From NCBI RefSeq assembly GCF_946478785.1, contig NZ_CAMLDD010000014.1, positions 59,931 through 123,930 of the forward strand: a stretch of 64,000 nt of DNA, in the 5' to 3' direction. Under the pieces are notes generated by a model. The model saw nothing but the letters and a program-made list of their open reading frames with translations, did no database searches and was not told the origin of the DNA. Shown here piece after piece: positions 500-19,278 of this stretch. The first letter of the stretch is position 1. Each line of letters opens with the position of its first letter. The DNA comes from an uncultured Flavobacterium sp. (GTDB lineage Bacteria; Bacteroidota; Bacteroidia; Flavobacteriales; Flavobacteriaceae). The position numbers and the translations under genes were made by a program.

Positions 500-562
500 T
501 ATAAATATCAATTTAGGTGGGCAAAAGAACAAAAAAAAAATTAAAGTACCGTTATTCGAGAG

Positions 563-1342
563 TTAAATCCCAAAAACGTCTTTGGAGTTCTGTGTTGTCA
601 CTTCTGCAATTTCAGTTTCTGAAAGTTCGTAAATTTCAGCCAGTTTTGCAATTACATTTTTTAAATAACTGCTTTCGTTGCGTTTACCTCTGTAAGGAAT
701 TGGCGCCAGATAAGGCGAATCGGTTTCCAGAACGATATGTTTCAAATCGATTTGGTTTAGGAACTGGTCAATTTTTCCGTTTTTAAAAGTCACTACACCG
801 CCAATTCCCAACTTCATTTTATAAGATATAGCCTGAAGTGCCTGCTCATACGTTCCGGTAAAACAATGAAAAATCCCAAACAAATCATCTGATTTTTGCT
901 CTTCCAGAATCTCAAAAATTTCATCAAAAGCTTCACGGCAATGAATTACGATGGGTAATTTATATTGTTTTGCTAATTGAATTTGTTTTCTAAAAGCAAT
1001 TTGCTGTTCTTTTAAATGTGTTTTATCCCAATACAAATCGATTCCAATTTCGCCAACGGCATAAAATTTTCGTTTTGAAAGTTCTGTTTCAACATGTTCC
1101 AGCTCGTCCAGATAATTATCTTTCACGTAAGTGGGATGAAGTCCCATCATCAGAAATACATGATCCGGATAATTTTGCTCTAAATCGTACATAGATTGTG
1201 TGGCAGCGGCATCAATGGCGGGAATAAAAAATCGCTTTATCCCTGCATTTATGGCTCTTTGTATCATTTCGTCACGATCCTGATCAAACTCTTCAGAATA
1301 TAAATGTGTGTGTGTATCGGTGATTATTGTATTTGAATTCAA
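563..1342 (-). CDS. TatD family metal-dependent hydrolase (DNase)
   Basis: About 260 residues, the usual TatD length. The N-terminal HTHLY supplies two metal-ligand histidines, VGEIGIDLYW carries the conserved glutamate, PIVIHCREA and FHCFTG supply further histidines, and LETDSPYLAP near the end carries the terminal aspartate. Members are Mg-dependent 3'-5' exonucleases or related phosphodiesterases of the cytoplasm. There is no ATG near the N-terminus. The reading frame can begin at TTG 1366 or TTG 1342. I prefer 1342 because TTG 1366 forms the last bases of a good promoter -7 box (TAATTTTG, 1371-1364, with a TTG 20 bp upstream). Product is secure; the exact start is not. Confidence 0.9.
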   Translation of the reverse strand: MNSNTIITDTHTHLYSEEFDQDRDEMIQRAINAGIKRFFIPAIDAAATQSMYDLEQNYPDHVFLMMGLHPTYVKDNYLDELEHVETELSKRKFYAVGEIGIDLYWDKTHLKEQQIAFRKQIQLAKQYKLPIVIHCREAFDEIFEILEEQKSDDLFGIFHCFTGTYEQALQAISYKMKLGIGGVVTFKNGKIDQFLNQIDLKHIVLETDSPYLAPIPYRGKRNESSYLKNVIAKLAEIYELSETEIAEVTTQNSKDVFGI

Positions 1343-1363
1343 TCGTTTGTTTTTTAAAGTTGT

Positions 1364-1394
1364 CAAAATTACGACAATATTAAAAGAATAGCAA
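1364..1394 (-). promoter_or_regulatory. Bacteroidota-type promoter for the TatD gene
   Basis: On the minus strand TTG (1394-1392), a 20-bp spacer and TAATTTTG (1371-1364) match the flavobacterial consensus TTG-N19..23-TAnnTTTG. It suggests transcription starts just downstream, which favours the internal start codon at 1342. Confidence 0.5.
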
Positions 1395-1408
1395 TTGCGT
1401 GTGATTGG

Positions 1409-1466
1409 GACGCGGATTTGACGGATTCACTTTTGTGAAAACGCGGATTAATGCGGATTTTTTCTC
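1409..1466. repeat. Imperfect CGCGGAT-rich intergenic repeat
   Basis: The 316-bp gap between the TatD and S41 genes has no credible ORF. It starts with three spaced copies of a (A/T)GCGGATT motif (about 1410, 1441 and 1452) around a small hairpin, TTCAC-TTTT-GTGAA. I recall similar GCGGATT strings as dispersed intergenic sequence in Flavobacterium. The rest of the gap (about 1560-1670) holds further short inverted repeats, such as GCGGAA/TTCCGC, and a GC-rich patch (TTCGCCTGTTCGCTATCGC). Confidence 0.4.
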
Positions 1467-1481
1467 TGTTTCTTAATAAAT

Positions 1482-1513
1482 AAACCCGACAGGTTTTAAA
1501 ACCTGTCGGGTTT
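1482..1513. terminator. Perfect 32-bp palindrome, probable bidirectional hairpin/terminator
   Basis: AAACCCGACAGGTTTT is followed immediately by its exact reverse complement (centre between 1497 and 1498). RNA from either strand would form a strong hairpin ending in U/A runs. It lies between two minus-strand genes, so it may terminate the S41 transcript, or it may be a mobile palindromic repeat. Confidence 0.5.
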
Positions 1514-1682
1514 GAATGCGTATAAAACCTTTGTCAAAGTATAAAGCAATCTTGTCAAAACTCGCGGAAGGATCACATAAGAAATTCCGCAATGAAATTT
1601 GACAATCTTTGTCGGTTTACGATTGTGATTTGCTTCGCCTGTTCGCTATCGCTCGGATCCCTTTCGTCAAATGACAAAAAAC

Positions 1683-3326
1683 CTATTTCCCTGTCTCAAT
1701 AAATACCAAAGCGCGATCTAAAACCTCATCCTTCCCTTCCTGAATTCCCTTGATGGTTGGCTTCACTTCTATATCAGGAACAATTCCGATTCTTTGGGTT
1801 TCGCGTTTGTCTGGATAATAAACGCCAATACCGGTATATCTGGTATGAAATACTCTAAAATCAAGCTCTGTTACATTGCCATCTGCTCCGGCGGTCTGGC
1901 TTCCAATAATTGTAGTATTTCCGGCCGTCTGAAAACACATTGCGGTCCATTCTGACTGACTAATAGAATCTTCGTTTAGCAATACAACAACTTTTCCTTT
2001 ATAACTATCTTTATTTTCTGAGCCACAGGTTGATCCTTTTTCCCAATAAAATCTTCCCGGATAATTAAAATCAGGAAAAGTGTAAATAGCAAAATTTTGT
2101 TCGTGAGCGTTTAAAAAATTAGCTATTTCGTAATAAGTCACATTTGGGTAATTTCTCATATCAAAGACAATAGCTTGGGTAGATTTTAATTTTTCAATCA
2201 TAGCGGGAACATTACTAACTTTTAAAATTCCCATATCAACATATCCAATATTATTGTCCAGAATTTTATATTTTTCTCTTTTTTTCTGAGCTCCTTTTTT
2301 AAATTCATTTCTATGAGAATCATGATAATCAAACCACTTCATTGTTTTGGTTACGTATTTACCATCTTTTAGAAACTCGACATTTACTGTGTCTGAATAG
2401 GACGACAAAATTGTCTCTACTAATTTGTTATTATAATGAGCTCTATTTGAAGCGGCAATTAAATCCTTGTTGTCAGCAATATGTTCAGGAATTGTTTTAT
2501 CATTTATTTTTGTAATTACGTCTCCTATTTTAATATCATCTGCCTGAGCCAGACTGTCTCCTAAGATTTCTGTAATCACCAGCTTGTTATCAATTATTTT
2601 TCCGTCAGCAGGAAAAAAGGTTCTGCTTTTGCTGAAGATACCAGACTTGAACAAAACAAATTCAACATGACTGTCATTAAGCCTGGCAGACATTTTTTTC
2701 ATTGCTGCAAAAAAATCATCTTCGTTTTTTGCATCTAGAACCAAAGGAAGTGCTTGTTCTAAAGTCACATCCCATTTCTGATCCATTAAGTATTTATATG
2801 GAAAATTATATTCAACTAAATTCCAATACATAAATAACCACAAAATTCTGGAACTTTCGTTATCGTATTTCAGATCAAAATAGTTTCCATTCTTAAAAGG
2901 ATTATATCCCGGACCCATTTTGTCATCGGTCTGAAACCTGTTGTCTTCTATAAACTTCAATTTCTTCGAAAGTTTTTTCGAAAACAGCTTACTATTAAAC
3001 CAGCTCAAATCAAAATTCTTATCAAAAAACTCAATTTCTTTTGGTATAGCAATCGGAGCAACTTCTTTTATCGGCCCACGTTCATCAATCCAATTTTCTA
3101 AGATCAAAGAAAACTCTTCCTTAGTTTGCGCTTTTTCAATTCTGGGCAATTTTTCCAAAAGCTGATTGTCCCAATTTACTTCTCCGCCGGCAACTTTGGG
3201 ATGGTAATATTTTAAAAATCCCCAGACTTTGCATGTTGCGGCCAACTTTTCGGATTCCGTAATTTTGGCATAGCCGAAGGTAATTTGTGAAAATAAAACA
3301 ACAAGGATTAAAGTAATTTTCTGCAT
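1683..3326 (-). CDS. Secreted S41 family peptidase (C-terminal-processing-like)
   Basis: A 547-residue protein with a Sec signal peptide (about residues 1-20, ending TFGYA). Order: a helical N-terminal half, a PDZ-like segment around GDVITKINDKTIPEHIA, then the S41 core, with the likely nucleophile serine in NEDSISQSEWTAM followed by GSQTAGADGNVTELDF, which contains the strand seen after the catalytic serine in this family. S41 enzymes are Ser/Lys periplasmic endopeptidases of the Tsp/CPP type. The protein probably acts in the periplasm. It is monocistronic, with palindrome 1482-1513 downstream. The 180 bp upstream (3327-3506) holds nothing clear. Family is sure; substrate unknown. Confidence 0.88.
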   Translation of the reverse strand: MQKITLILVVLFSQITFGYAKITESEKLAATCKVWGFLKYYHPKVAGGEVNWDNQLLEKLPRIEKAQTKEEFSLILENWIDERGPIKEVAPIAIPKEIEFFDKNFDLSWFNSKLFSKKLSKKLKFIEDNRFQTDDKMGPGYNPFKNGNYFDLKYDNESSRILWLFMYWNLVEYNFPYKYLMDQKWDVTLEQALPLVLDAKNEDDFFAAMKKMSARLNDSHVEFVLFKSGIFSKSRTFFPADGKIIDNKLVITEILGDSLAQADDIKIGDVITKINDKTIPEHIADNKDLIAASNRAHYNNKLVETILSSYSDTVNVEFLKDGKYVTKTMKWFDYHDSHRNEFKKGAQKKREKYKILDNNIGYVDMGILKVSNVPAMIEKLKSTQAIVFDMRNYPNVTYYEIANFLNAHEQNFAIYTFPDFNYPGRFYWEKGSTCGSENKDSYKGKVVVLLNEDSISQSEWTAMCFQTAGNTTIIGSQTAGADGNVTELDFRVFHTRYTGIGVYYPDKRETQRIGIVPDIEVKPTIKGIQEGKDEVLDRALVFIETGK

Positions 3327-3506
3327 TTAATGATGGTTAAAAGTTATAGATGGTTTCTTGTTAAATTCATAAAAACAAAATCGAATATAGAACAAAAAAA
3401 TTGAAATCTATTTTTTGTCAGCCATCTTAGATAAAAAAAATTCGCAAAGTGATTTATAACTCTGCGAATCTCTTTGTAAAATTTTCCGTGTATGGCTGCG
3501 AAATAA

Positions 3507-4232
3507 TTAATCCAAAGCGTTCAAAAGCTTCTGAACTTTATCATAATCTTCATAATCCTGCGAAATGGTTTGCAGAATTTTTTTACTGGCTTTATAATCT
3601 TTTTGTTTTAGTTTGGATAAGGCCAGATACCAAAGTGCTTTTTCCCTATAGACTGAAGTTCCTGATTTCAATTCATTAAATACGGCTTCAGATTTTGAAA
3701 ACTGATTCTCTTCCAGCAAAGCTATTCCGTAATAATATTGAATTTCAGTAGTTTTATTTTCTTTTAAAATCGTTTCAAAAAGCGTAATAGCGGCTTTGTA
3801 GTTTTTAGCATTATAAGCTTCCTCAGCTTGTTTTAAGGTTGCATCCAAATCACCTCTTTCGGTAAAATGGGCTTGTTCTGGCTGATTATATTGCTCGAAA
3901 TTCGGTTTTGCATTTTGATTAAAAAAGAACAGCCCGAATAAAATAACTACAGATGCGGCGGCGGCATAATACCATGGACGCATCAATACCACTTTTGGTT
4001 TGTTTTTATTGAAATGTTTGTCTGAAATATCGGATAAGTTTTCTTTAAACGCTTCTCTTTCCTGTACATGCCCAAATTTATTTTGCAATTGAACCTGAAC
4101 TTCTTTAAAAGTTCTGAATTCAGCAGCAAATTCCGGATTTCCTGAAACCTCTTTTTCAAAGTTATTTCTTTCCTCAACAGTCATTTCCCCCTGAAGATAT
4201 TGATCAAATAATAGGTAGCGTTCTTCGTTCAT
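3507..4232 (-). CDS. Membrane-anchored TPR protein paired with an ECF sigma factor (anti-sigma-like)
   Basis: A 241-residue protein. Residues 1-80 are a charged cytoplasmic region (FDQYLQGEMTVEERNNFEKE resembles the N-terminus of many Bacteroidota anti-sigma or sigma-associated proteins). Residues about 87-104 form one transmembrane helix (YYAAAASVVILFGLFFF). Residues about 125-241 are tetratricopeptide-like helices (AEEAYNAKNYKAAITLFETIL, then ALLEENQFSKSEAVFNELK). It begins 2 bp after the sigma factor stop, so the two are co-transcribed and probably translationally coupled. By position and topology I infer that it senses an envelope signal through the periplasmic TPR part and controls the sigma factor. 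No classical zinc anti-sigma motif is visible, so this role is inference. Confidence 0.8.
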   Translation of the reverse strand: MNEERYLLFDQYLQGEMTVEERNNFEKEVSGNPEFAAEFRTFKEVQVQLQNKFGHVQEREAFKENLSDISDKHFNKNKPKVVLMRPWYYAAAASVVILFGLFFFNQNAKPNFEQYNQPEQAHFTERGDLDATLKQAEEAYNAKNYKAAITLFETILKENKTTEIQYYYGIALLEENQFSKSEAVFNELKSGTSVYREKALWYLALSKLKQKDYKASKKILQTISQDYEDYDKVQKLLNALD

Positions 4233-4234
4233 GA

Positions 4235-4819
4235 CTAATTATTTTTAAGAGATTTAAATTTTTTTGCTTCCTGAATCCATTGTGTCAGCTGTCCAATACA
4301 TAACGATTTCTTTTTACGGACATATCCATATGTTACGTTTAGTTTTTCAGCAACTTCTTCCATTGATTTAATGGTAAAACTCAGTTTCAGCAGTTCCTGA
4401 CATTTGTCTCCCAATTTTTGGAACATCACATCAAAAAGCTGCTGCTTTTCATCAAACTGTTCCGCTTCTTCAACCAATTCGAGAGCAGATACATTGATAG
4501 ATGCAAAATCTTCATTAATTGTTACCCCTTTATTCGAAGTTTTTTTCAATTCATTAAGCCACTTCCTTTTACACAACAAAAAGAAGTAAGCATCAAACGG
4601 ACAAGTCAAGAGCAATGTATTGGCTTTTGCCTGATTAAAAAGTAAAATCATGATTTCCTGAACTATATCCTGCGCCTGATCCTTGTCTCCTGAATTATTC
4701 ATTATATAGAAAACCACTTTTGGAACGAAATTTTTATAGATAGAACGGATTACCGCCGAATCATTTGCAGCAATTCCTTCGATATACATTTGGTCGGGAT
4801 GAATTTTACTTTTTTCCAT
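4235..4819 (-). CDS. ECF-type RNA polymerase sigma factor (sigma-70 family)
   Basis: A 194-residue protein with region 2 around KDQAQDIVQEIMILLFNQA (core binding and -10 recognition) and region 4 near the C-terminus (MEEVAEKLNVTYGYVRKKKSLCIGQL, a helix-turn-helix for the -35 element). Length and two-domain layout are those of extracytoplasmic-function sigma factors. It heads a two-gene operon with the TPR membrane protein and is divergent from the 4947-11775 gene set. Three copies of one promoter-like motif lie in front of the first two genes of that set, so it probably directs their transcription (inference). No anti-sigma with a recognised domain is present. Confidence 0.9.
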   Translation of the reverse strand: MEKSKIHPDQMYIEGIAANDSAVIRSIYKNFVPKVVFYIMNNSGDKDQAQDIVQEIMILLFNQAKANTLLLTCPFDAYFFLLCKRKWLNELKKTSNKGVTINEDFASINVSALELVEEAEQFDEKQQLFDVMFQKLGDKCQELLKLSFTIKSMEEVAEKLNVTYGYVRKKKSLCIGQLTQWIQEAKKFKSLKNN

Positions 4820-4877
4820 AATTGAAATTATTAGCTAAAGTAAAAAAAAGAATCTGAAAAAAATTACAGAAATGGGG

Positions 4878-4906
4878 GTAACAATCCTAAAAACAAATTG
4901 ATATAA
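4878..4906 (+). promoter_or_regulatory. Predicted ECF promoter, copy 1 (GTAACAAT-N10-AATTGATATAA)
   Basis: GTAACAAT at 4878-4885, ten bases, then AATTGATATAA at 4896-4906. The same two blocks with exactly the same spacing recur at 5272-5300 and 5341-5369. This copy ends 40 bp before the ATG at 4947 and lies in the gap divergent from the sigma factor gene. The length and two-block form fit a promoter recognised by the adjacent ECF sigma factor. Confidence 0.6.
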
Positions 4907-4946
4907 ACCAATAATTAGGTTGATTAAAATCATAAATCACATTAAA

Positions 4947-5246
4947 ATGGGAAGTTACCAATTAACAAACGAAAAAGATTTTGCCAAGTTCCAGCAAACA
5001 TTGTCGAACAAAATTCGCAGCGGATTTACCATAATTGAAAAAAATGACAAACTCCCTTATGTGGTTTTAACCAAAGAAAAAAAACAAATCGACTCTTCCA
5101 TACAGCTGACTTTGGTTTTCGCAACCCTCGGGCTTTGGTCAATTGTCTGGCTGTATTTAATTATTAGTCTTTCAAAGAAAGAAGAAATCCTAGTGGCACT
5201 CGATGAGGACGGAAATGTTTTTGAAGAAAAATGTCTCTCAAAATAA
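4947..5246 (+). CDS. Small conserved membrane protein, function unknown
   Basis: 99 residues from ATG 4947 (MGSYQLTNEKDFAKFQQTL). A longer TTG start at 4920 is possible but lies too close to the promoter motif that ends at 4906. Residues 1-45 are soluble, about 50-75 form one long hydrophobic segment that could be a transmembrane helix or hairpin (IQLTLVFATLGLWSIVWLYL), and the last 20 are acidic. I recall similar small proteins in other Flavobacterium genomes, none with a known role. It is the first gene downstream of ECF motif copy 1 and probably responds to the divergent sigma factor. Confidence 0.75.
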   Translation: MGSYQLTNEKDFAKFQQTLSNKIRSGFTIIEKNDKLPYVVLTKEKKQIDSSIQLTLVFATLGLWSIVWLYLIISLSKKEEILVALDEDGNVFEEKCLSK

Positions 5247-5271
5247 ATTAAAAAAAAAATAAAAAATAGAG

Positions 5272-5300
5272 GTAACAATTTAAAAGGCAAATTGATATAA
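5272..5300 (+). promoter_or_regulatory. Predicted ECF promoter, copy 2
   Basis: GTAACAAT (5272-5279), ten bases, AATTGATATAA (5290-5300): the same blocks and spacing as copy 1. It lies 148 bp before the lipoprotein start. The flanking A-rich sequence up to about 5340 also resembles that around copy 3, so copies 2 and 3 look like a 69-bp tandem duplication. Confidence 0.55.
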
Positions 5301-5340
5301 CCATATAAAAACGAATTAAAAATAAATTTCAAAAACAAGG

Positions 5341-5369
5341 GTAACAATATCAAACCCGAATTGATATAA
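5341..5369 (+). promoter_or_regulatory. Predicted ECF promoter, copy 3
   Basis: GTAACAAT (5341-5348), ten bases, AATTGATATAA (5359-5369), 79 bp before the ATG at 5449. It is the promoter copy nearest to the lipoprotein gene. Confidence 0.6.
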
Positions 5370-5448
5370 GAATATAAAAATTAAATTAACAACCGAATCT
5401 GAAAACCAACTGATAACGATCAGCTCAGATTTATAAAAATTAGAAATC

Positions 5449-6432
5449 ATGAACACAAATTTTAAAAAAATCGGATTATTATTTTTAGCATTGGCCACTT
5501 TTGCAAGTTGCGATGATACTGACGGAGACTCAGACAAAGTTACACCTCCATCAGCAACAGAATTTGCAGCGATAAGAGACAATGCCTTAGCTGGAAAAAC
5601 ACAACATTTTACTGCAACAGCAGGAACAGGAGCAATTACACTGACATCTGCAAAAGGAGTAAAAATCAACATCAACGGAAACTGTCTTACTAAAGCAGGA
5701 AATGCTGTTACCGGAGCAATAGATATTGAATTTGTAGAACTTTTTGACAAAGGCGATATGTTGGTTACCAACAAACCAACCATGGGTTTAATGCCTGACG
5801 GAAAGAAAAATTTATTAATCTCGGGAGGTGAATTTTTTATCAAAGCAACACAGGGCGGACAGGAATTAGCCACTACATGTACGATAAATTTAGTGGTTCC
5901 TACTAATTTAACCGGCGGTTTAGACAATGAAATGACATTATGGATTGGAAACATTGACGAAGATGATAACTTAGTTTGGAGAGAAGCCAAAGGTGATGCA
6001 GACGGTGCTGGTGGAAAAGGCGGCGTTCAGGGTGAAGCCAACAATTATTATGTAACATTTGGAAACTTCGGATGGACAAATGTTGATAAATTCTACAGCG
6101 ATCCAAGACCTAAAACTACTATTTTGGTTGATGCTCCCGAAGGTTATGACAATGATAATTGTTCGATATATTTATCATACGATGGCGAAGGACAAAATGC
6201 TTTGGCGAAGTTAGACACCTACACAGCAGCCGGATTATTCAGCGAACACTACGGACAAATCCCTGTTGGTTTAGCTTGTCACATCATTTTTGCAACCGAA
6301 GATAATGGGCAATGGCGTTATGCTATCAAAGGTGTTACCATCGCTGCTGACCAAACCTACAGCTTTACTTTAGCCGAAACGACAGTAGGTTCAGAAGCGC
6401 AACTGGTAGCTGCAATCAATGCTATTCAGTAA
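5449..6432 (+). CDS. Predicted lipoprotein of unknown function in the ECF/CHAT locus
   Basis: 327 residues. The N-terminus is a lipoprotein signal (GLLFLALATFASC, lipidation at the cysteine) followed by an acidic linker, so it is probably anchored in the periplasm or at the cell surface. The body is rich in beta strands (AGTGAITLTSAKGVKININGN, then GAIDIEFVELFDKGDML), resembling a ZU5-like or other beta-sandwich fold, but I recognise no defined family. It is preceded by two ECF motif copies and followed by a hairpin terminator at 6454, so it may be transcribed alone. Confidence 0.85.
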   Translation: MNTNFKKIGLLFLALATFASCDDTDGDSDKVTPPSATEFAAIRDNALAGKTQHFTATAGTGAITLTSAKGVKININGNCLTKAGNAVTGAIDIEFVELFDKGDMLVTNKPTMGLMPDGKKNLLISGGEFFIKATQGGQELATTCTINLVVPTNLTGGLDNEMTLWIGNIDEDDNLVWREAKGDADGAGGKGGVQGEANNYYVTFGNFGWTNVDKFYSDPRPKTTILVDAPEGYDNDNCSIYLSYDGEGQNALAKLDTYTAAGLFSEHYGQIPVGLACHIIFATEDNGQWRYAIKGVTIAADQTYSFTLAETTVGSEAQLVAAINAIQ

Positions 6433-6453
6433 CTTACAAAATACTTTTTTAAG

Positions 6454-6485
6454 AAAAAGTGGTGATTTGCTCATCACTTTTTTTT
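6454..6485 (+). terminator. Rho-independent terminator after the lipoprotein gene
   Basis: AAAAAGTGGTGA, a 5-base loop and TCATCACTTTTT (one G-U pair) form a hairpin followed by a T run, 21 bp after the stop. Confidence 0.7.
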
Positions 6486-6520
6486 ACATTTAAACCTGTT
6501 TTAAACTGATTCTGATCATT

Positions 6521-6603
6521 TTCAGAAGCTAATCCTGCTGTCCGTTGTATCTTTTATGCCGAACCCCGGCACAAAAGGATGCCACTACCATCAGGGCTAA
6601 AAA
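6521..6603 (-). repeat. Dispersed intergenic structured element, copy 1 (reverse orientation)
   Basis: Read on the minus strand it has the layout AGCCCTGAT, then GGCATCC, a hairpin (CTTTTGTGCCG/CGGCATAAAAG), then GATACA, GGACAGCAGG and TTAGCTTCT. The same layout occurs at 19157-19241, 50364-50450 and, diverged, near 59418. It fills the gap between two co-directional genes. No ORF is inside. Confidence 0.75.
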
Positions 6604-6615
6604 ACCTCCTCGACC

Positions 6616-8568
6616 ATGAAAAAACTTTTATGCTGTTTCATTCTTCTTTCATCAGCAATGGTGTTGGCACAAACCAAAGTAAAAGACACCATCACCCGAA
6701 GAGCCAATATCAGCTATACCCAAAGAGGCAATTCTGTAACCTTTAAACCGGAAACACCACCCTTAATTCCAATTGCCGGAGCACCAAAACCAAGCTACTC
6801 TTACTTATGGGAGCTCGGTGACGGACATTACTCCAGACAGGCAGAACCCAAACACGTTTACAAAAACAAAGGCAATTATACCGCACGATTAGCTGTTACC
6901 AACAATTACGATAACGGAAAACCTCCTGCTACAAGACCAAAAAAAGTAGTGATAAACGAAATCGCTGATGATCCCTATCAGGACATCGCCTCCATTGCCG
7001 ATCAAAACGGATTCTCCATTCAAAAAAATTGCGATCCCATTCCGGAACAGGAAATGGTAGTCGTAGTCAGTTATCAAAATCTTGAAAATTATGTTGCTAA
7101 TGGCAAATTATATCTTTTCTACAACGAGAAACAATTCAAAAACAACAATTTCGAATTAATCGATTTCAGAACTTATGCAGGCGAGCGTGAAGTAAAAGAA
7201 AACACAATAGCTTCTGTTGATGATCTGGACGACTCAAAATCATACATGGCTTCTGCCGAAAACACTTTAAAATTCAAAAAATATAAAAATACGACTACCG
7301 AAGAAGATTTGGAGGCAAGTTTAAAAGAAGCACATACACTATACAATAATGTTTCTATTTTGGAATTTGACGAGGCCAATCCAAGCGAAACCCGAAATGT
7401 TTTTTACACTTTCAAAACAACTCCTGAAATGATCAAAGATACCAGCGCAACGGTTACCATGCGTGGAATATTTGTTCCCAACAGAAGTTTTAAAAACCAT
7501 AAAATAAAAAACCTCGAAATGGAAATCGTGACTTCTCACGACCCCAACAAAATGGGTTCTAACGGAAATCTGATCAATTACAGACTGGTTCGGTTTAAAA
7601 GAGTAAAATTTAAAACCCGTTTTCAAAACAACGGCGAAGGCCCAGCCAGAAAAATTCGTTTAGAAACCGATATTGCCGATATGTTCGATAAAAAAACTTT
7701 TCAGATTGAAGGTATGTATCCTGAATGTCCCATTTGTCCAAAAGACGAAGAACCAACAGTAAGCTGCCTGGATACCATCATCAAACAAAAACAAATTATT
7801 TTTACTTTCAAGAATATTTATCTTCCGGGAACGGAACAAAAAAATGTACAGGAAAAAGACAGCACAAAAGGTTTTGTGCGTTATTCGATGAAATTTAACG
7901 AAGACTTTCATAAAATAAAAACCAAAAGCCGGACAGCCATTATTTTTGACAAAAACGAACCAATTATTACTAATTATGCCGTAACAAGATTCTTACCCGG
8001 AATTTCGATTGGCGCAAAAGCCGGATATAATATTTATCCGGATCTGGAAAAGTCAACCAGTTATTTCGTTGGAGCTACGATTTCCCCTTTCAAATCCTAC
8101 CGCTTTTATTGGCAGGCAGAATGGGTAAATGCTTTGAACCAATACAACAGCGCAGTTAATATTATAACCACAGTTAACACAAATGCAAACGGAACAAGGC
8201 GATTAATACGTACCACAACTACAACAGAAAACAAGAATATAAATTGGGAAGTCCCTGTTTTGATTCGGTATAACATAAATAATTATATTGGAATCGGAGC
8301 CGGGATTCAGGCCAACATCAATGTTTTATCAGAGCACCATCAGGATATAAAAACAGAAATTTTTGAAAATGAGAAGGAAAACATTCTAATAGATACAAAA
8401 ACAACAAATAACACCGTTAAAAACTCCTTTATCGATTTTAAAACGGGTCTTTTATTTGATTTAACAGCAGGTTTTGCCAGAATTGGACCAAGTTTAGGCG
8501 CACGTTATGTAATGAACTTTGAACAAAATTTTAATTATATTCAGCTTTATGGGATTTGGAAGTTTTAA
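6616..8568 (+). CDS. PKD-domain protein with C-terminal outer-membrane beta-barrel-like domain
   Basis: 650 residues. Signal peptide about 1-19 (ending MVLAQ). A PKD domain follows at about residues 50-105 (LWELGDGHYSRQAEPKHVYKN and NYTARLAVTNNYD carry the typical WDFGDG- and HxY-type strands). The middle part is of unknown fold and includes a four-cysteine-type knot around YPECPICPKDEEPTVSCLD. The last 190 residues (from about FLPGISIGAKAGYNIYP) alternate in the way of an outer-membrane porin-like barrel and end in YIQLYGIWKF with a terminal phenylalanine. It is therefore probably an outer-membrane protein with a periplasmic or surface PKD module. It lies between the lipoprotein and the CHAT gene in one direction. 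Confidence 0.82.
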   Translation: MKKLLCCFILLSSAMVLAQTKVKDTITRRANISYTQRGNSVTFKPETPPLIPIAGAPKPSYSYLWELGDGHYSRQAEPKHVYKNKGNYTARLAVTNNYDNGKPPATRPKKVVINEIADDPYQDIASIADQNGFSIQKNCDPIPEQEMVVVVSYQNLENYVANGKLYLFYNEKQFKNNNFELIDFRTYAGEREVKENTIASVDDLDDSKSYMASAENTLKFKKYKNTTTEEDLEASLKEAHTLYNNVSILEFDEANPSETRNVFYTFKTTPEMIKDTSATVTMRGIFVPNRSFKNHKIKNLEMEIVTSHDPNKMGSNGNLINYRLVRFKRVKFKTRFQNNGEGPARKIRLETDIADMFDKKTFQIEGMYPECPICPKDEEPTVSCLDTIIKQKQIIFTFKNIYLPGTEQKNVQEKDSTKGFVRYSMKFNEDFHKIKTKSRTAIIFDKNEPIITNYAVTRFLPGISIGAKAGYNIYPDLEKSTSYFVGATISPFKSYRFYWQAEWVNALNQYNSAVNIITTVNTNANGTRRLIRTTTTTENKNINWEVPVLIRYNINNYIGIGAGIQANINVLSEHHQDIKTEIFENEKENILIDTKTTNNTVKNSFIDFKTGLLFDLTAGFARIGPSLGARYVMNFEQNFNYIQLYGIWKF

Positions 8569-8575
8569 ATATTTC

Positions 8576-8702
8576 CACCATATAAGTGATATAAGTAAAT
8601 TTAAGTTTTTAACTGGATAAGATACAGATAAGCATATATGACCTTATTAAATCTTGAATTATACGCAACAAAATGATATGAACTTATATGACTTATATGG
8701 TG
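8576..8702. repeat. Long inverted repeat upstream of the CHAT gene
   Basis: A 21-bp left arm (8576-8596) matches the reverse complement of 8682-8702 at 20 of 21 positions, enclosing 85 bp. The arms are built from ACTTATAT units. It sits directly after the PKD gene stop, so it may end that transcript, but there is no T run typical of a terminator. I recall ATATAAGT-type strings as dispersed repeats in Flavobacterium. Confidence 0.6.
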
Positions 8703-8748
8703 AAAAAAATAGGCAATAAAATAATATGAACTTACATTACTTATATGG
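8670..8748 (+). repeat. 31-bp direct repeat that includes the CHAT start codon
   Basis: 8670-8700 and 8718-8748 match at 28 of 31 positions (period 48 bp). The second copy contains the ATG at 8726 and the first codons of the CHAT gene, so the start of that reading frame derives from the repeat. The first copy overlaps the right arm of the inverted repeat. Confidence 0.65.
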
Positions 8749-11386
8749 TTTAATTTTTCTTTTTATAAATCTGAATGTTCTTGGGCAGAATCAGGAAGAT
8801 AAAATTTACAATGCAATTGATGTTTTTGTCGCTCATCCTTCCGCGAAAGCGTTACAAAATCTCTCCAAAGCCGAAACTGATTTCTGGAAAAATCCACAGC
8901 CAAAAACCAAAGGCGAATTGCTCGCCATTGTGGTTTTAAACTGCAATAAAGCCTATTATGAAAATCAATTTGGGCAATCTCAAAATGCAATTTCAAGCTA
9001 TGAGAATGCCTGGCAAATCTATCAGAAATGTAAACTTAAAGACTACGATATTATCGAATATTGCCTCAAGCCTTTAGGTAACTTATATACCGTTTTAGGC
9101 GATTATGACAGCGCTGAAAATACTATAAAACAATATTTTTTTATAGTCAATACAACCAAAAATTATCCTGAAGCGACAAAGCAAAAATTTGCAGCGATTC
9201 TTAATTTATCGAATGTGTATCAAAGTTCCGGTAAAATTTCTCTAGCCATAGAATTATTGGAAAACACTTTAAAAACAGAAAAATTATCGAATGCTCAAAA
9301 AGGAATTTTGCTGAATAATTTAGGAAATAATTATTTACTAAGTTCCGGAGGAAATCTACTGATGCCGGAAACTTATGAAAAAGCCGAAAATGCTTTTAAG
9401 TTGGCTGTAAATTATCTCAAAAGCGAGAAAGAACAAACAGAAACTTTATCGAATTCTTATCGAAACTTGTCTACGCTTAATCGCCAAAGACATCAGTTTG
9501 AAGCAGCCAGTTCTTATTTGGAAAAAGCTGAAAAAATCTTTTTCGCAACACCAAATCAACAACCCAGAAAAGTTGCAAAACTCTATTATGAAAAAGCATT
9601 ATTGCTTTTTGACGAAGGAAAAGAGGATGAAAGCGAGAAACAGATTTCGGCAATTTTTAAAATTTTAATTCCGAATTATAATGCTAAAAGTATTCTGCCA
9701 AATCAAAACCAATTGTATGCAGAAACAGTTTTAATGGATGCACTAGATTTACATGCCGAAATTTTACTGTTCAAACAACCCAAAAAAGCTCTAAAAACTT
9801 TTGAACTTTCCTTTTACATTGAAGATTTATTGATGAACTCATTAGTTTACGAAAATTCTAAAATCATCACGCAAATCAGAACACGTAACCGAACTGAAAA
9901 ATGTCTTGTTATTTATGATCGTTTGTACAAAGAAGAAAATAAAATTCAATATTTAGAAGAAGCTTTTCAATTATCAGAAAAAACCAAATCCGGAATTTTA
10001 AAAAGTCACCGCTCGAACATTACAAATGCTTCAGCAGAAGAAAAGACGATGTTACAGCAGCTTCAAAACTTAAATAATGCTATAATAAAAGAACAGCAAA
10101 AAGGAAACCTCGCTAATATTTCAAACATTAATTCAGCCATAAAAAAGCAAAATCAATTGATGCTTTCACTAAAAGAAATCCAATCTAAAAACGTTGATTA
10201 TATTCCTGAAAAAACCAACTTAAAAGAACTCTTTTCTAAATTAGAAAAAGATAAAGCAGTAATGGTTCATTATTTTATGGGTTCTGAAAATTTATTTTAC
10301 TTCACTTTACAAAATAACCGAATTAGTTTAAATCATCTAAATACAACTCATAGAGCAATGATTGAAGTTGTTCGTTTTGTAGATTATTTCAATACTGCTG
10401 ATGCTATTACAAACAATATTTCGGGTTATAATTACTCTGGCAAAAAAGTGTATGATTTATTAAAATTGCCTCAAAATACTATTTACAAAAACCTCATCAT
10501 TGTTCCGGACGGCATTTTAAATTTCCTGCCTTTTGAAGCGTTGATTACACGAAAATCTTCTACAACCAATTTTACCAAAATGCATTATTTACTGCATGAT
10601 TTTAAAATTGCCTATAATAATTCAGCGGGTTTTTATCTCAATTCAAAACCAATCTCAAAATCAGATAAAACCGTTTTGGGCGTTTTTCCAATATTCGAAG
10701 AAACGGCTTTTGAATTACGTTATTCGAAAAAAGAACTTGAATCAATCCGGAACAACTTTGAGGGAAAATATTTAGAAAATTCAGGAGCAAGCTTTTCTAA
10801 TTTTAAAAATAATATTTCCAATTATTCAATTTTACATCTCAGTACGCATGCTTCTTCGGGAGATATTGAAACTCCTGCAAGCATCAAATTTTACGATCAG
10901 GAAATTTTATATTCAGAATTATACAATCTAAACATCAATCCCGATTTAGTGGTTTTAAGCGCCTGTGAAACCGGAATTGGAAAACTCTATAAAGCCGAAG
11001 GTGCCATGAGTGTAGCCAGAGGTTTTCAGTTTGCAGGAGCGCAGAATTTACTGTTTTCGTTGTGGAAAGTAAACGATTATACGACATCGGTTTTTATGAC
11101 TAATTTTTATAAAAATGTCAAAAATAATCAGACTTATTTTGAAGCCAATACAAACGCAAAACTTGCTTTTTTAAATGATAAATCGATTCCAAATGCTAAA
11201 AAATCGCCCTATTACTGGAGTTCTTTTGTTTATTATGGCTCGATTTCTACTGAAACAAATTCAACTAATTATATCGTTTACATCATTAGTTTATTGGCTT
11301 TAATTGGTTTATTTTTGGTTCTCAATCAGTATCAAAAATGGAAAATCTTCACCTGGTCCTTAAAAAAGAAAAATACAAAAAGATAA
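8726..11386 (+). CDS. TPR-CHAT caspase-like protease with signal peptide and C-terminal membrane anchor
   Basis: 886 residues. Signal peptide about 1-20 (GLIFLFINLNVLG). Tetratricopeptide-like helices run through about residues 60-420 (ALGNLYTVLGDYDSAENTI-type units). The CHAT domain occupies about 520-830, with the catalytic dyad His708 in LHLSTHASSG and Cys747 in VVLSACETGIG, both intact, plus GAMSVARGFQFAGA and SLWKVND. A transmembrane helix at about 845-866 and a basic tail (KWKIFTWSLKKKNTKR) put the C-terminus in the cytoplasm and the TPR/CHAT part in the periplasm. CHAT proteins are clan CD cysteine proteases, often activated by partner binding. It overlaps the retropepsin region only if that gene used an upstream start. 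Confidence 0.92.
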   Translation: MNLHYLYGLIFLFINLNVLGQNQEDKIYNAIDVFVAHPSAKALQNLSKAETDFWKNPQPKTKGELLAIVVLNCNKAYYENQFGQSQNAISSYENAWQIYQKCKLKDYDIIEYCLKPLGNLYTVLGDYDSAENTIKQYFFIVNTTKNYPEATKQKFAAILNLSNVYQSSGKISLAIELLENTLKTEKLSNAQKGILLNNLGNNYLLSSGGNLLMPETYEKAENAFKLAVNYLKSEKEQTETLSNSYRNLSTLNRQRHQFEAASSYLEKAEKIFFATPNQQPRKVAKLYYEKALLLFDEGKEDESEKQISAIFKILIPNYNAKSILPNQNQLYAETVLMDALDLHAEILLFKQPKKALKTFELSFYIEDLLMNSLVYENSKIITQIRTRNRTEKCLVIYDRLYKEENKIQYLEEAFQLSEKTKSGILKSHRSNITNASAEEKTMLQQLQNLNNAIIKEQQKGNLANISNINSAIKKQNQLMLSLKEIQSKNVDYIPEKTNLKELFSKLEKDKAVMVHYFMGSENLFYFTLQNNRISLNHLNTTHRAMIEVVRFVDYFNTADAITNNISGYNYSGKKVYDLLKLPQNTIYKNLIIVPDGILNFLPFEALITRKSSTTNFTKMHYLLHDFKIAYNNSAGFYLNSKPISKSDKTVLGVFPIFEETAFELRYSKKELESIRNNFEGKYLENSGASFSNFKNNISNYSILHLSTHASSGDIETPASIKFYDQEILYSELYNLNINPDLVVLSACETGIGKLYKAEGAMSVARGFQFAGAQNLLFSLWKVNDYTTSVFMTNFYKNVKNNQTYFEANTNAKLAFLNDKSIPNAKKSPYYWSSFVYYGSISTETNSTNYIVYIISLLALIGLFLVLNQYQKWKIFTWSLKKKNTKR

Positions 11387-11397
11387 AATTTAAAATC

Positions 11398-11775
11398 ATG
11401 AAAACCCAGCATTTATTGATTAAAGTAAAAATCAATGGTGTTTCGGGAAATTTTATTTTAGATACAGGTGCTTCCAACTCTTGTGTGGGTTATGAAAGTA
11501 TTGAACGATTTGAACTGACTTCGAAAAAATCCAAAACCAAAGCGGCAGGCGCAGGCGGAACCGGAATGAAAACACAAATCTCCAAACAAAATGCACTACA
11601 AATTGGTTCCTGGAAAAATCAGGATTTCAGCCTGGTTATTTTTGACCTTTCGCACGTAAATGAAGCTTTAAGACAATACAAGGCAAAACCTGTTCACGGT
11701 ATTATTGGCGCAGATGTTTTGATGGAAGGAAAGGGAATTATTGATTATTATAACCATTATTTGTATTTGAAATAG
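11398..11775 (+). CDS. Retropepsin-like aspartic protease
   Basis: 125 residues from ATG 11398, 11 bp after the CHAT stop. A longer start at 11338 would overlap the CHAT gene and add only basic tail sequence. The single-domain clan AA fold is shown by FILDTGASNSCV (catalytic Asp22 in DTGAS), a flap-like AAGAGGTGMKTQ, and HGIIGADVLMEGKGIIDY, the second conserved hydrophobic-hydrophobic-Gly psi-loop motif. Such proteins work as homodimers with one aspartate from each subunit. No signal peptide is seen, so it is probably cytoplasmic. Tight coupling to the CHAT gene suggests a joint function (inference). Confidence 0.88.
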   Translation: MKTQHLLIKVKINGVSGNFILDTGASNSCVGYESIERFELTSKKSKTKAAGAGGTGMKTQISKQNALQIGSWKNQDFSLVIFDLSHVNEALRQYKAKPVHGIIGADVLMEGKGIIDYYNHYLYLK

Positions 11776-11848
11776 CTAAAACAAACGAATAAAACAAAAT
11801 TTATTAAAATCAAGTAAAAGTTATTAACAAATTAAGGTGAAAAAAGAA

Positions 11849-11935
11849 TCTTATTTGATAGTTATTTGACAAATAGATGTATTTTTACCTGCAGCCCCAG
11901 TAAATACTGGACATTCTTATTTGATGGTTATTTGA
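11849..11935 (+). repeat. 21-bp direct repeat flanking a small palindrome
   Basis: TCTTATTTGATAGTTATTTG-type sequence at 11849-11869 recurs at 11915-11935 with one mismatch. Between them is CCAGTA-AA-TACTGG (11897-11910). It lies directly upstream of the ATG at 11938 and could be a duplicated operator or insertion scar. Confidence 0.5.
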
Positions 11936-11937
11936 TT

Positions 11938-13388
11938 ATGGAGCAAAAAAAGTTAATAAATATCGTAAATGATTTGATTAAACAACCAAACGAAAGTGAA
12001 TGGGTTGAATTCAAATTAAATTATCATTCAGTTGAAGAAATAGGTGAACGTATTTCAGCTTTATCAAATGGAGCTTGCCTTCATAATCATCCTTTTGGAT
12101 ATTTAGTTTTTGGTGTTGAAGATAGAACCCATAAAGTTGTTGGAACCACTTTCAAAATAAAGTCATATAAAAAAGGCGGGGAAGAATTAGAAAGTTGGCT
12201 GATGAATCGATTATCACCGAAGATTGATTTTAGGTTTCATGAATTTGAATATGAAAATGGAATACATATATCTATGATTATAATTCCTTGTGCAGAGAAT
12301 CGGCCTATCGATTTTCTACACACATCTTATATTAGAATAGGAAGTTATACCAGAAAATTAAGTGATTTTCCTGAAAAAGAAGGCAAAATTTGGAGAAAGG
12401 CTCCAGACAAACCATTAGAAAATCGTGTTGCGAAAGCCAATGTCACATCATCAGAAATAATAAGTTTACTAAACTCTCAAACGTACTTTGAACTATTAAA
12501 ACTTCCATATCCTAATACACAGGAAGGCGTAATTGAAAATTTATTTCTGAAAAATTCATAAAAAAGAATAAAGAGCAATATGACATAACAAAATTAGGAG
12601 CTATTCTTCTAGCCAAAAATCTTGAAGAATTCGATGAGATAGGGAGAAAGGCCGTTCGAGTAATTGTTTACAAAGGAAAAAATAAAGTTGAAACAATAAG
12701 GGAGCAAATAGGGAAAAGAGGATATGCAGTAAGTTTTGATGGACTAATTGATTGGATCAACGGACAATTACCTGCTAATGAAGAAATAGGAAAAGCTTTC
12801 AGAAAAGAGACAAAAATGTATCCTGAAATTGCTATAAGAGAATTAGTTGCAAATGCTCTTATTCATCAAGATTTTAATGAAAAAGGATTTCCCATGATCG
12901 AAATATTTTCAGATCGAATTGAAATTTCAAATCCTGGTCTTCCGCTTATAACTCCACAGCGTTTTATTGATGAGTATATTTCCAGAAATGAAAAGTTAGC
13001 TGATATATTAAGGAGATTTGGTATATGTGAAGAAAAAGGAAGCGGTATTGATAAGGTTATTTTTTATAATGAAATGTTCCAATTACCAGCTGTTGATTTT
13101 ATTGTTTCAGAAAAAAGAACAAGAATTACAATGTTCAGCTATAAAGAGCTTAATCATTTAGACAAGAAAGACAAAGTTAGAGCCTGTTATCAACATGCTT
13201 GTTTACGTTATGTTTCCAATGATATAATGACTAATCAAAGCTTAAGAGAACGATTCCAAATTGAAGAACAAAATTCCGCAATAGCATCTAGAATTATAAA
13301 GGATACGATTACTGAAGGATTAATAAAAGATGATGATCCATCCAGTAACTCTAGAAAGTATAAGAAATATATCCCTTTTTGGGCATAA
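11938..13388 (+). pseudogene. AlbA_2/Schlafen-type putative ATP-binding transcriptional regulator, split by a -1 frame change
   Basis: Two frames encode one protein of about 483 residues. The first, 11938-12561 (MEQKKLINIVNDLIKQPNES), is the AlbA_2/Schlafen-like domain (SEWVEFKLNYHS, LVFGVEDRTHKVVGT, YIRIGSYTRKLSDFPEKEGKIW). The second carries the rest, including the GHKL-like ATPase N-box RELVANALIHQDF and the GICEEKGSGIDKV loop, ending in a winged-helix-like tail. Joining them by a -1 shift at AAATTTA (12537-12543, in frame as A AAT TTA) gives ENLISEKFIKKNKEQYDITKLGA split over the junction, which reads like the intact family. A one-base deletion or programmed frameshifting both fit. No strong downstream RNA structure is visible, so I favour a deletion. 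Confidence 0.75.
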
Positions 13389-13412
13389 TATATTATAGCA
13401 TTCTCTTAAAAA

Positions 13413-13498
13413 CAATAAAAAATCCCAAATCATTAATTAAAATTTTCATTGTTATGTCATAAATTATTTAAAACTATAGTTTTAATATACTTTTAGCA
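13413..13498 (-). pseudogene. Degenerate copy of the odhB 3' end and its terminator region
   Basis: The 86 bp match 17800-17887 with blocks of 18, 23 and 9 identical bases in the same order and nearly the same spacing. On the minus strand the frame reads A-K-S-I-L-K-L-stop where odhB reads A-K-R-A-L-E-L-stop. It is the only notable content of the 284-bp gap 13389-13672. See the findings for the possible recombination scar. Confidence 0.7.
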
Positions 13499-13672
13499 AT
13501 TAACAAAATGAAAATCTTTACTCATTCTTAAGTCAAAAAATAAAACTCAATCATCAAACACTGTTTTATTGATAAAATAAAAAACCAATGTTATTTCTGA
13601 AAAAAATTTATTTTAGATATCGGTGCTTTCAAAACACTTTATCATCAGTAAGAGAAATATTTTAGTATTAAC

Positions 13673-14452
13673 TTATTTTTTTGAGTTTCTCTTTAAATGA
13701 ACATTTTCGCCTAATGCCCACAAAATTCCGCCTGTAAGATGCTGGATAAACACAGGATCAACATAATCTTTACTATCATGTCCTAAAGCAGTATAAAATA
13801 CTCTTGCTCCTTCGAATTGATGATACCAAGCCAACGGAAAATAATCTCCAAAAATACGCCCAGGGTAGACTTCTTTTTCGGGATCTTCTACAGTTCGCAA
13901 ATCGGCCGCTAAAAGTACCTGAATGTTAGGATTGAGTTCATTCATATAATAACATTCATCTTCTTTTCTCCATATTTCAGGCAGCATTGCCGTTGAAGGA
14001 TGATTTTTATTAATCTTTTTTATTTCAAAAGGCTGAAAAGCCGGATGTTTTTTAAATTTACCTCCTATCATAGCTGTATACCAAGGCCAGGATCTTTCAG
14101 AATCAGAGGCACTGTGAATACCTACAAAAGATCCTCCGGCATGAATGTAATCTACAAATGCCTGCTTTTGCTGTTCTGTATCAAAAATATCATTACAGGT
14201 ATTTGAGAAAACAAGACAGTTATATTTTTTTAAACTCTCGGAAGTCATTATTGCCGGATCATCTGAAACATCAACAATTAACTTATTTGCTTCGCCAATT
14301 TTCTTTAAGGCTTCAACACTCGAAGCTATATTTTTATGTACGTAGCCTTTGCCATTTTTAGTATAAACCAAAATCCTTTTTTTAGCTGGGGGATTGGCAA
14401 AAACAGAACTTAATGCAAAACAGACAACTAGCAATATCAATTTTATTTTCAT
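13673..14452 (-). CDS. Secreted ThuA-like domain protein
   Basis: 259 residues with a signal peptide (about 1-19, ending SSVFA). The rest is one ThuA/class-I glutamine-amidotransferase-like domain: KRILVYTKNGKGYVHKNI, then YNCLVFSNTCNDIF, then AGGSFVGIHSASDSERSWPWYTAMIGG, HPAFQPFEI, and GARVFYTALGHDSKDYVDPVF. ThuA-like proteins of Bacteroidota are linked to sugar metabolism (ThuA of rhizobia acts in trehalose utilisation); here the export signal suggests the periplasm. No cognate sugar genes are adjacent. Family sure; activity unknown. Confidence 0.88.
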   Translation of the reverse strand: MKIKLILLVVCFALSSVFANPPAKKRILVYTKNGKGYVHKNIASSVEALKKIGEANKLIVDVSDDPAIMTSESLKKYNCLVFSNTCNDIFDTEQQKQAFVDYIHAGGSFVGIHSASDSERSWPWYTAMIGGKFKKHPAFQPFEIKKINKNHPSTAMLPEIWRKEDECYYMNELNPNIQVLLAADLRTVEDPEKEVYPGRIFGDYFPLAWYHQFEGARVFYTALGHDSKDYVDPVFIQHLTGGILWALGENVHLKRNSKK

Positions 14453-14581
14453 ATTTATTCTTTTATTTTCTAATATAAAAAGAAAATCTCAAATTCTAAT
14501 CTACGAATTAAAATTAGATTTCACTTTGATAGCTTTCTTAAACTGAAAAATTATTGATAACTATAATATCATTATTTGTAT

Positions 14582-14615
14582 TTGAATTATAAAGTAACCT
14601 TTTTATCTATATTTG
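14582..14615 (+). promoter_or_regulatory. Promoter of the SprB-repeat protein gene
   Basis: TTG (14582-14584), 23-bp spacer, TATATTTG (14608-14615). It lies downstream of the first in-frame start of the open frame (14576), so translation must begin later, at ATG 14645. Confidence 0.6.
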
Positions 14616-14644
14616 CCAAACCTATTTTTAACAAATATGCTGCT

Positions 14645-17755: not shown

Positions 17756-17804
17756 GATTTAAATTCCAATATTGAAATTACAAATTCCCAACTTGAATTC
17801 AATA

Positions 17805-17841
17805 AAAAATCCCAAATTCTTAATTGGAATTTGGGATTTTT
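17805..17841. terminator. Bidirectional terminator between the SprB-repeat gene and odhB
   Basis: AAAAATCCCAAATTC, a 7-base loop and GAATTTGGGATTTTT form a perfect 15-bp stem with A/T runs on both sides. It serves convergent genes ending at 17755 and 17863. Confidence 0.85.
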
Positions 17842-17862
17842 AATATTATAAATTATTTAAAA

Positions 17863-19089: not shown

Positions 19090-19156
19090 GTTCTGTTATT
19101 TTAAATTATGAATTTTATATTTTAATTGTTCCCTAAAGAACTTCTTATTCTTATTT

Positions 19157-19241
19157 TTTAGCCCTGATGGCAGCGATATCCTTTTTCTGGCTTCTTTAGC
19201 CGGGAAAAGATTTAGCGGACAGCAGGAAATAGCTTCTAAAA
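19157..19241 (+). repeat. Dispersed intergenic structured element, copy 2
   Basis: Layout AGCCCTGAT, GATATCC, hairpin CTTTTTCTGGCT/AGCCGGGAAAAG (complete with G-U pairs), GATTTAGCGGACAGCAGG, AATAGCTTCT. It fills the gap between odhA and odhB, inverted relative to their transcription. The conserved outer blocks match copies at 6521 and 50364. Confidence 0.75.
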
Positions 19242-19278
19242 ATATTTATTAGTGTGATTGCTTCGTTCCTCGCAATGA

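Follow-up and report, generated by a model that had tools for sequence, protein, structure and literature searches.

CHAT proteases are mostly discussed as enzymes of defence or cell death. In two described systems, a CHAT protein belongs to a circuit around an extracytoplasmic function (ECF) sigma factor. In the type III-E CRISPR system Craspase (Csx29, Csx30 and CASP-sigma), Csx29 acts in complex with the RNA-guided effector Cas7-11 and cleaves Csx30, a protein that binds and inhibits an ECF sigma factor (PMC10028731). In Myxococcus xanthus, DdvS controls an antiphage island (PMC12288465), and DdvA is named an anti-sigma factor in the deposited titles of PDB entries 8rot and 8rw5. The logic of CHAT, anti-sigma factor and sigma factor is thus already known, as a single chain (DdvA) and in a CRISPR form (Craspase). 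The present work concerns a locus in a 64,000-nt stretch of DNA from an uncultured Flavobacterium sp. (the whole of which is referred to as the window), where an ECF sigma factor, a membrane protein with tetratricopeptide repeats (TPRs) and an exported TPR-CHAT protein are encoded side by side with several other genes (Table 1). With a probability of roughly 0.55, the three are read here as an envelope-signalling module in which the periplasmic TPR-CHAT protein cuts a single-transmembrane (single-TM) TPR anti-sigma factor.

The locus differs from each of its closest counterparts. Anti-sigma factor and CHAT form one chain in DdvA, whereas they are two separate proteins in the window and in the linked loci of other Bacteroidota; DdvS governs an antiphage island, whereas the motif targets described below resemble exported or envelope proteins. 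The TPR-CHAT fold of Csx29 is shared with the CHAT protein of the window, but Csx29 works inside an RNA-guided complex, while the protein described here carries a signal peptide and a TM anchor. The window shows no array of CRISPR-like repeats: direct repeats of at least 22 nt within 400 nt were limited to the promoter-like copies described below at positions 1-20000 and to two AT-rich, two-copy families at 20001-64000, and no Cas7-11 effector was matched among ten proteins scanned at 1683-13388 (Pfam, NCBIfam). The proposed logic, a periplasmic protease unlocking a membrane anti-sigma factor, is the same as that of RseA/DegS/RpoE as summarized in PMC10028731. EACC2-caspase systems likewise have neighbourhoods with a predicted caspase, an ECF sigma factor and TPRs (DUF1822), although by their description in the part of the source available (PMC8195603) they are not exported TPR-CHAT proteins with a single-TM TPR partner. 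No description of a sigma/TPR-CHAT module in Bacteroidota was recognised in searches of the open-licence literature, an earlier mention elsewhere being possible; nor did the two-protein envelope form, the phylum-wide linkage or the promoter-like motif turn up in those searches. Compared with RseA/DegS/RpoE, in which DegS is a serine protease, the locus has a caspase-like CHAT protein and a TPR-bearing anti-sigma candidate.

Linkage of the sigma, TPR and CHAT genes

Conservation within the Flavobacterium type was assessed in the best 80 of 203 genome-contig stretches with a CHAT relative (loci and genomes carry L and G numbers, respectively). Six genes, those for the TPR protein, sigma factor, lipoprotein, PKD protein, CHAT protein and retropepsin, keep the same order and strands in 73 of the 80 loci, so the arrangement is not a product of chance. 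Of the seven deviating loci, five come from contigs 4-12 kb long. In L079 no lipoprotein gene was recognised, and in L057 other genes precede that of the PKD protein and the locus sequence contains no sigma gene.

The sigma and CHAT genes also occur together. Among 150 genomes of the genus group, a CHAT ortholog was found in 49 and a sigma ortholog in 54; all 49 genomes with the former have the latter (only a piece in G457), and 96 genomes have neither. Five further genomes with only distant CHATs were not counted as having orthologs. Of the five genomes with sigma and no CHAT, G383 and G439 are probably fragmented assemblies, given their high contig numbers, and in G223, G385 and G404 only the first 127-129 sigma residues match, within a frame of 325-345 amino acids (aa). 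In G223 the sigma fragment is fused to the TPR protein, with loss of the sigma C-terminus and the partner N-terminus and no adjoining CHAT gene, and this frame may be read as a remnant of module loss. Sigma seems, from these sequences, to have been lost or broken together with CHAT. In the phylum sample, a CHAT gene lay within about 10 kb on the same contig, by manual reading, for 17 of the 18 listed sigma matches of at least 89 bits; the lone exception was the G223 remnant.

Beyond the genus, a CHAT profile search of 296 Bacteroidota genomes gave a match at 1e-30 in 48 of them, with no more than three candidates scored per genome, so that the counts are lower bounds. From the resulting 68 CHAT places (counted by hand), nine of Flavobacterium type were dropped as orthologs, along with one second piece of a listed gene and one place within a neighbour's region, and 11 weak places were left out (G117, G236, G237:2251966, G172, G052, G204:C69, G082, G109, G251, G212:21046 and G267). 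The 46 that remained were joined by 14 from a Pfam-based CHAT survey to give a distant set of 60 CHAT genes outside the Flavobacterium type, and 40 random stretches (mock genes), drawn from long contigs in 13 of these genomes, served as control. At a limit of 3.5 kb, 39 of the 60 CHATs had an ECF sigma gene nearby, compared with 3 of the 40 mock genes (p 3e-9); at 5 kb the counts were 44 and 4. The sigma profile was iterated from CHAT-linked sigma factors and then over all loci, and may favour linked types; it finds five sigma genes in the 40 random stretches, and eleven of the sampled genomes carry 21-79 TIGR02937 matches each. For nine genomes, chosen for their CHAT matches, coverage extended to all CHATs above the Pfam cut-off; of these 37 CHATs, 31 have a sigma gene within 5 kb. 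The initial annotation proposed co-occurrence of the sigma, TPR membrane and CHAT genes as a check, and these genes are conserved together well beyond the genus.

Linkage within 3.5 kb is more frequent for CHATs with a C-terminal TM helix than for those without (31/39 versus 8/21, p 0.002), as expected if CHAT must meet a membrane partner. The recurrent families of the 44 linked loci are CHAT (44), sigma (38) and a single-TM partner (36), the next family being found in five, and a partner of the same type lies downstream of the sigma gene in most of them. Gene order and orientation vary across loci while the linkage persists, the divergent arrangement being that of Flavobacterium.

Six exported CHATs without a C-terminal TM helix (L117, L118, L120, L123, L128 and L132) have their nearest sigma gene 5-8 kb away, and three of the six sit in tandem CHAT pairs. 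They perhaps represent a second class of exported CHAT with another role.

Proteins of the module and a promoter-like motif

By inspection of its sequence, the TPR-CHAT protein begins with a signal peptide and has a hydrophobic helix near its C-terminus, with basic residues after it; its CHAT domain (PF12770) scores 153.5 bits against a Pfam cut-off of 24. Residues 708 and 747 are His and Cys, in agreement with the initial annotation, and both columns are kept in 60 of 60 distant CHATs. Within the Flavobacterium type, the SAC motif of the Cys occurs in 80 of 80 sequences, and HLSTH and SACETG are both exact in 77, with SACQTG in two others. This retention points to catalysis, and the protein is predicted to be a caspase-like protease of the periplasm, anchored to the inner membrane by its C-terminal helix (residues 849-882 in an AlphaFold 2 model with a mean predicted local distance difference test score, pLDDT, of 80). 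Fold matches of this model include separase, Csx29 and DdvA, and DdvA also ranks first when PDB sequences are searched with the CHAT profile (E 2.8e-9). DdvA and Csx29 were reached only with a profile from 36 divergent CHAT domains (of 57 available); the narrower profiles A2 (E 0.01) and A6 (E 10) returned TPR and TPR-like proteins from PDB, and no CHAT. The named proteins nearest to the CHAT of the window are from Flavobacterium.

Divergent CHAT types, with 59-64% identity to that of the window (L048, L050, L054, L060, L062-L065, L067-L069 and L071-L074, compared against L001-L043), are flanked by genes that cluster with the flanks of the main type. Within the 60 residues surrounding Cys747, identity remains at 86-100% across 40 compared sequences. 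Both features may be read as an exchange of CHAT sensor parts among strains.

The TPR membrane protein is encoded 2 nt behind the sigma gene. From the flanking charges, judged by eye, its N-terminal ~80 residues would be cytoplasmic, residues ~85-105 would span the membrane and the TPRs would face the periplasm. The nearest relatives (L111-L113) have a single hydrophobic segment, spanning residues 88-110. Distant partners are ~240 aa long (mostly 195-340 aa), with the segment at ~70-125 in most of them; two have none at the threshold used. Three NCBIfam anti-sigma models match the N-terminus of the partner at 18.9-31.4 bits, all far under cut-off, and the partner profile had no match in PDB at E 0.01.

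Alignment of the sigma-lipoprotein intergenic regions brought out a repeated promoter-like element, GGTAACAAT-N12-TTGATATA, with three copies in the window (0 expected), all between the sigma and lipoprotein genes. The GTAAC core of its upstream half resembles ECF -35 elements. When GKTAAC and GATATA were sought with 14-24 intervening bases, 144 matches were found in the 1.70 Mb of the 80 loci, always with a spacer of 17. On the + strand between the sigma and lipoprotein genes lie 139 of them; some of the other five are in the same region by manual reading (L002 and L078), an overlong sigma frame in the scripted count being the probable cause. At least one motif is present in this gap in 71 of 80 loci.

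Genome-wide, the strict form occurs at 67 sites and in 29 of 29 genomes with a Flavobacterium-type module, while the reversed pattern and a spacer one base longer each gave 0 sites in the same genomes. Manual reading placed 51 sites within the module, in 28 genomes (all but G155), and the remaining 16 outside it; for 21 genomes a script agrees with the in-module reading (40 sites, plus L002 and L078). Genomes G085, G290 and G254 have the strict motif within the module, and none of 12 genomes without a Flavobacterium-type CHAT ortholog has it anywhere. The motif is thus nearly confined to the module, and position and co-occurrence suggest that it is read by the sigma factor encoded there.

Of the 16 sites outside the module, one (L283) falls within a reading frame; the other 15 occupy intergenic DNA, with a gene 24-159 bp downstream. 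By eye, all 15 products begin with a signal or lipoprotein sequence. The most frequent is an L,D-transpeptidase in five genomes (Pfam YkuD in 5/5), followed by an 864-aa Por_Secre_tail protein and a ~250-aa protein without a Pfam match in three genomes each. Two genomes have a lipoprotein at this place, and RCC1-type and OmpA-type proteins are found in a single genome each. Of the three strict sites of G290 and G254 outside the module (L218-L220), one is upstream of a lipoprotein gene, one lies 311 bp from the next gene and one is within a reading frame.

Within the module, the motif lies no more than 400 nt upstream, on the gene's own strand, for the lipoprotein in 57 of 74 loci and for the small gene in 45 of 61, and never for the genes of the PKD protein (0/77), CHAT (0/80) or retropepsin (0/78). 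A terminator-like hairpin follows the lipoprotein gene in 74 of 74 loci, versus 2/77 after the PKD gene and 0/80 after the CHAT gene. This count allows G-U pairs, perfect Watson-Crick stems alone giving 26/74, and a generic terminator scan of the window did not list the hairpin at 6450..6486. From the motif positions and the hairpin, the direct targets of the sigma factor within the module are taken to be the small gene and the lipoprotein, the latter being the best supported. Both also speak against a direct drive of the whole run through the retropepsin by the sigma factor, and the initial annotation's view of 4947-11775 as one regulon is abandoned to that extent. Read-through past the hairpin into the PKD and CHAT genes is possible, and the CHAT gene may have a promoter of its own, as for an input component.

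A proposed circuit and its alternatives

In the resting state, the sigma factor would be held by the N-terminal portion of the TPR membrane protein. CHAT would be turned on when its TPRs, perhaps together with the lipoprotein and PKD protein, read a signal from the envelope, and would then cut the periplasmic part of the anti-sigma protein. Further trimming would free the sigma factor, which would then read its motif upstream of the two module genes (small gene and lipoprotein) and, elsewhere, of a few genes for exported proteins, most often the L,D-transpeptidase. The cleavage is the step with the least support; it is plausible in that two of the nearest CHAT relatives with solved structures, Csx29 and DdvA, are each part of a circuit with an ECF sigma factor.

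A number of observations weigh against this reading. The TPR membrane protein is a probable anti-sigma factor on grounds of position, topology and sub-threshold matches. In a mirror-tree analysis of 73 loci, the partial correlation of CHAT with the TPR partner was 0.07, as compared with 0.30 with sigma and 0.18 with the retropepsin, and thus lends no support to co-evolution of CHAT and partner as protease and substrate; divergent CHAT types also adjoin similar partners. The active-site loops 709-727 and 747-759 of the CHAT model have a pLDDT below 50, and one of the 80 Flavobacterium-type CHATs (L029) is without the STH string. There is no motif between sigma and lipoprotein in 9 of 80 loci, none no more than 400 nt upstream of the sigma gene on its own strand (0/75), and no strict site in G199, in which the module is present. 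Sixteen of the 60 distant CHATs have no sigma gene within 5 kb, G286 has retained the TPR-partner gene as an open frame with neither sigma nor CHAT, and the Fisher test for sigma/CHAT co-occurrence (p = 3e-34) concerns 150 related genomes with no correction for descent.

The main rival keeps the same sigma circuit but makes CHAT a non-cutting periplasmic co-sensor or clamp that binds the TPR part, maybe as in DdvA. Such a role would suit an anti-sigma factor (by its deposited titles) being both the best sequence match and a fold match, and the lack of special covariation between CHAT and partner fits loose TPR contacts no worse than a protease and its substrate; the conserved His and Cys point instead to catalysis, and this rival is considered a serious but clearly less probable one. 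It is rather improbable that CHAT is an output, that is, a periplasmic protease under sigma control whose role in stress would be to break down proteins or damage the cell. The CHAT gene does lie on the same strand as, and downstream of, the sigma-type promoters, where read-through could reach it. Against this stand the lack of a motif before the PKD and CHAT genes and the constant hairpin, and in the distant loci L116, L119, L122, L126 and L138 the CHAT gene and the sigma/partner pair point towards each other, an arrangement ill-suited to a sigma-driven operon.

The least probable of the alternatives, and a very doubtful one, has the two proteases act as a unit in which the retropepsin, acting from the cytoplasm, completes the cleavage of the anti-sigma factor. 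The retropepsin is predicted to be cytoplasmic, where a second cut would be needed, its covariation with CHAT is slight, and the two frames overlap, also in L111 and L112. The retropepsin is nevertheless found without the module. Orthologs of at least 260 bits occur in 15 of 296 genomes, and six of these have no CHAT (G069, G143, G171, G219, G223 and G286). Four of the six are empty sites, at which a TatD-type gene (G069, G143 and G219) or an S41 gene (G171) directly adjoins the retropepsin, the TatD identity resting on Pfam TatD_DNase in the window and in L258. The other two keep an intact retropepsin beside leftovers of the module, namely the fused remnant of G223 and the open TPR-partner gene of G286. 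Conversely, the module of G199 lies 75 kb from the retropepsin, and only 2 of 40 distant CHAT loci have one. As a member of the module the retropepsin was therefore rejected, its overlap with CHAT being real but clade-specific. Thus, of the sensing and proteolysis module first proposed, the linked sigma factor, membrane TPR protein and exported CHAT stand, together with the motif, whereas the retropepsin and the regulon through the whole run do not.

Extended to the phylum, the proposal is that Bacteroidota have a widespread, often multi-copy envelope response in which a periplasmic TPR-CHAT protein, rather than a DegS-type protease, cuts a TPR anti-sigma factor and unlocks an ECF sigma factor. 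This wider claim is tentative and somewhat less probable than that for the module itself. If true, this same CHAT - anti-sigma - sigma circuit would have the fused DdvA and the RNA-triggered Craspase as its relatives or offshoots, and the module would be a non-CRISPR setting for Craspase logic. Bacteroidota abound in ECF sigma factors, most of them with no known trigger. The many CHATs that adjoin sigma/partner pairs across the phylum offer a testable trigger mechanism for these factors, and the promoter-like motif should report sigma activity.

The retropepsin and other features of the locus

The retropepsin is probably, from its distribution, older than the module and a neighbour of it rather than a functional part. 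Most simply, the module would have been inserted, or have persisted in some lineages, between the TatD or S41 gene and the older retropepsin gene, so that the two proteases look adjacent because the module sits beside that gene. Among weaker orthologs, 12 loci have a retropepsin without an adjoining CHAT, with a TatD-like neighbour (by its N-terminus) in nine. The N-terminus M(E/K)NLHxxLKKExYKKxKFK is conserved in most relatives, hence the start is ATG 11338 (145 aa) and not ATG 11398. With this start the gene overlaps the CHAT stop by 49 bp, in place of the 11-bp gap originally given. The overlap is 49 bp in 42 of 78 loci and 4 bp in 13, with other values or no call in 23. Translation coupling of CHAT and retropepsin is possible in today's strains, and is not needed for the circuit. 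The DTGAS motif was confirmed and is present in 78 of 78 frames, and the Asp_protease_2 match reaches 56.6 bits (cut-off 24.3). Read by eye, the protein has no signal peptide; since CHAT has both a signal and a TM helix, the two are predicted to lie on opposite sides of the inner membrane.

Open reading frame calls and profile searches (Pfam, NCBIfam) recovered all the genes of the initial annotation in their places. The features are listed in Table 1.

Table 1. Features of the sigma/TPR-CHAT locus in the 64,000-nt window
Feature	Coordinates	Strand	Match or remark
TPR membrane protein, probable anti-sigma factor, single TM	3507..4232	-	TPR_19 31.8 bits
ECF sigma factor	4235..4819	-	TIGR02937 55.4 bits (cut-off 42.9)
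Promoter-like motif, copy 1, 41 nt 5′ of small gene	4877..4905	+	
Small membrane protein, 99 aa	4947..5246	+	Frame present in 61/80 loci
Promoter-like motif, copy 2	5271..5299	+	
Promoter-like motif, copy 3, 80 nt 5′ of lipoprotein gene	5340..5368	+	
Lipoprotein, no known family	5449..6432	+	Motif upstream
Terminator-like hairpin and T run, 3′ of lipoprotein gene	6450..6486	+	Folded
Exported PKD - DUF7619 - DUF7849 protein	6616..8568	+	PKD_4 39.2, DUF7619 53.8, DUF7849 228.3 bits
Exported TPR-CHAT protein: signal peptide, TPR, CHAT, C-terminal TM ~848-867	8726..11386	+	PF12770
Retropepsin-like protease, predicted cytoplasmic, 145 aa	11338..11775	+	Asp_protease_2

The sigma factor scores 19.9 bits with Pfam Sigma70_r2, under the cut-off of 24, and over the cut-off with TIGR02937. 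The PKD protein stays with the module in the distant loci L111-L113 and L121 too. When the six proteins were scanned with PADLOC models, the retropepsin weakly matched the candidate PDC-M08B (32.4 and 27.2 bits) and the TPR partner weakly matched Csx1 (13.8 bits), with no match for the sigma factor, lipoprotein, PKD protein or CHAT.

The lipoprotein has no Pfam or NCBIfam match at E 0.01, and its AlphaFold 2 model (pLDDT 77.8) has no Foldseek match at E 0.001. Among the 50 matches listed, those of highest probability that stood out are an ankyrin-B/spectrin complex (probability 0.77, E 0.07) and an ankyrin ZU5 structure (probability 0.47, E 0.09), both of them too weak to suggest a function.

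Two further observations concern the surroundings of the locus. At 11935-13388, AlbA_2 and RecG-like HATPase pieces are split over two frames, whereas the counterpart in a related genome (L259) is one open frame of 485 aa; the gene of the window is either frameshifted or affected by an assembly error. Finally, a dispersed sequence near CCTGCTGTCCGYTRTATCTTTT has three copies in the window with no more than two mismatches (0 expected), at 6534-6555, 19205-19226 and 50413-50434.

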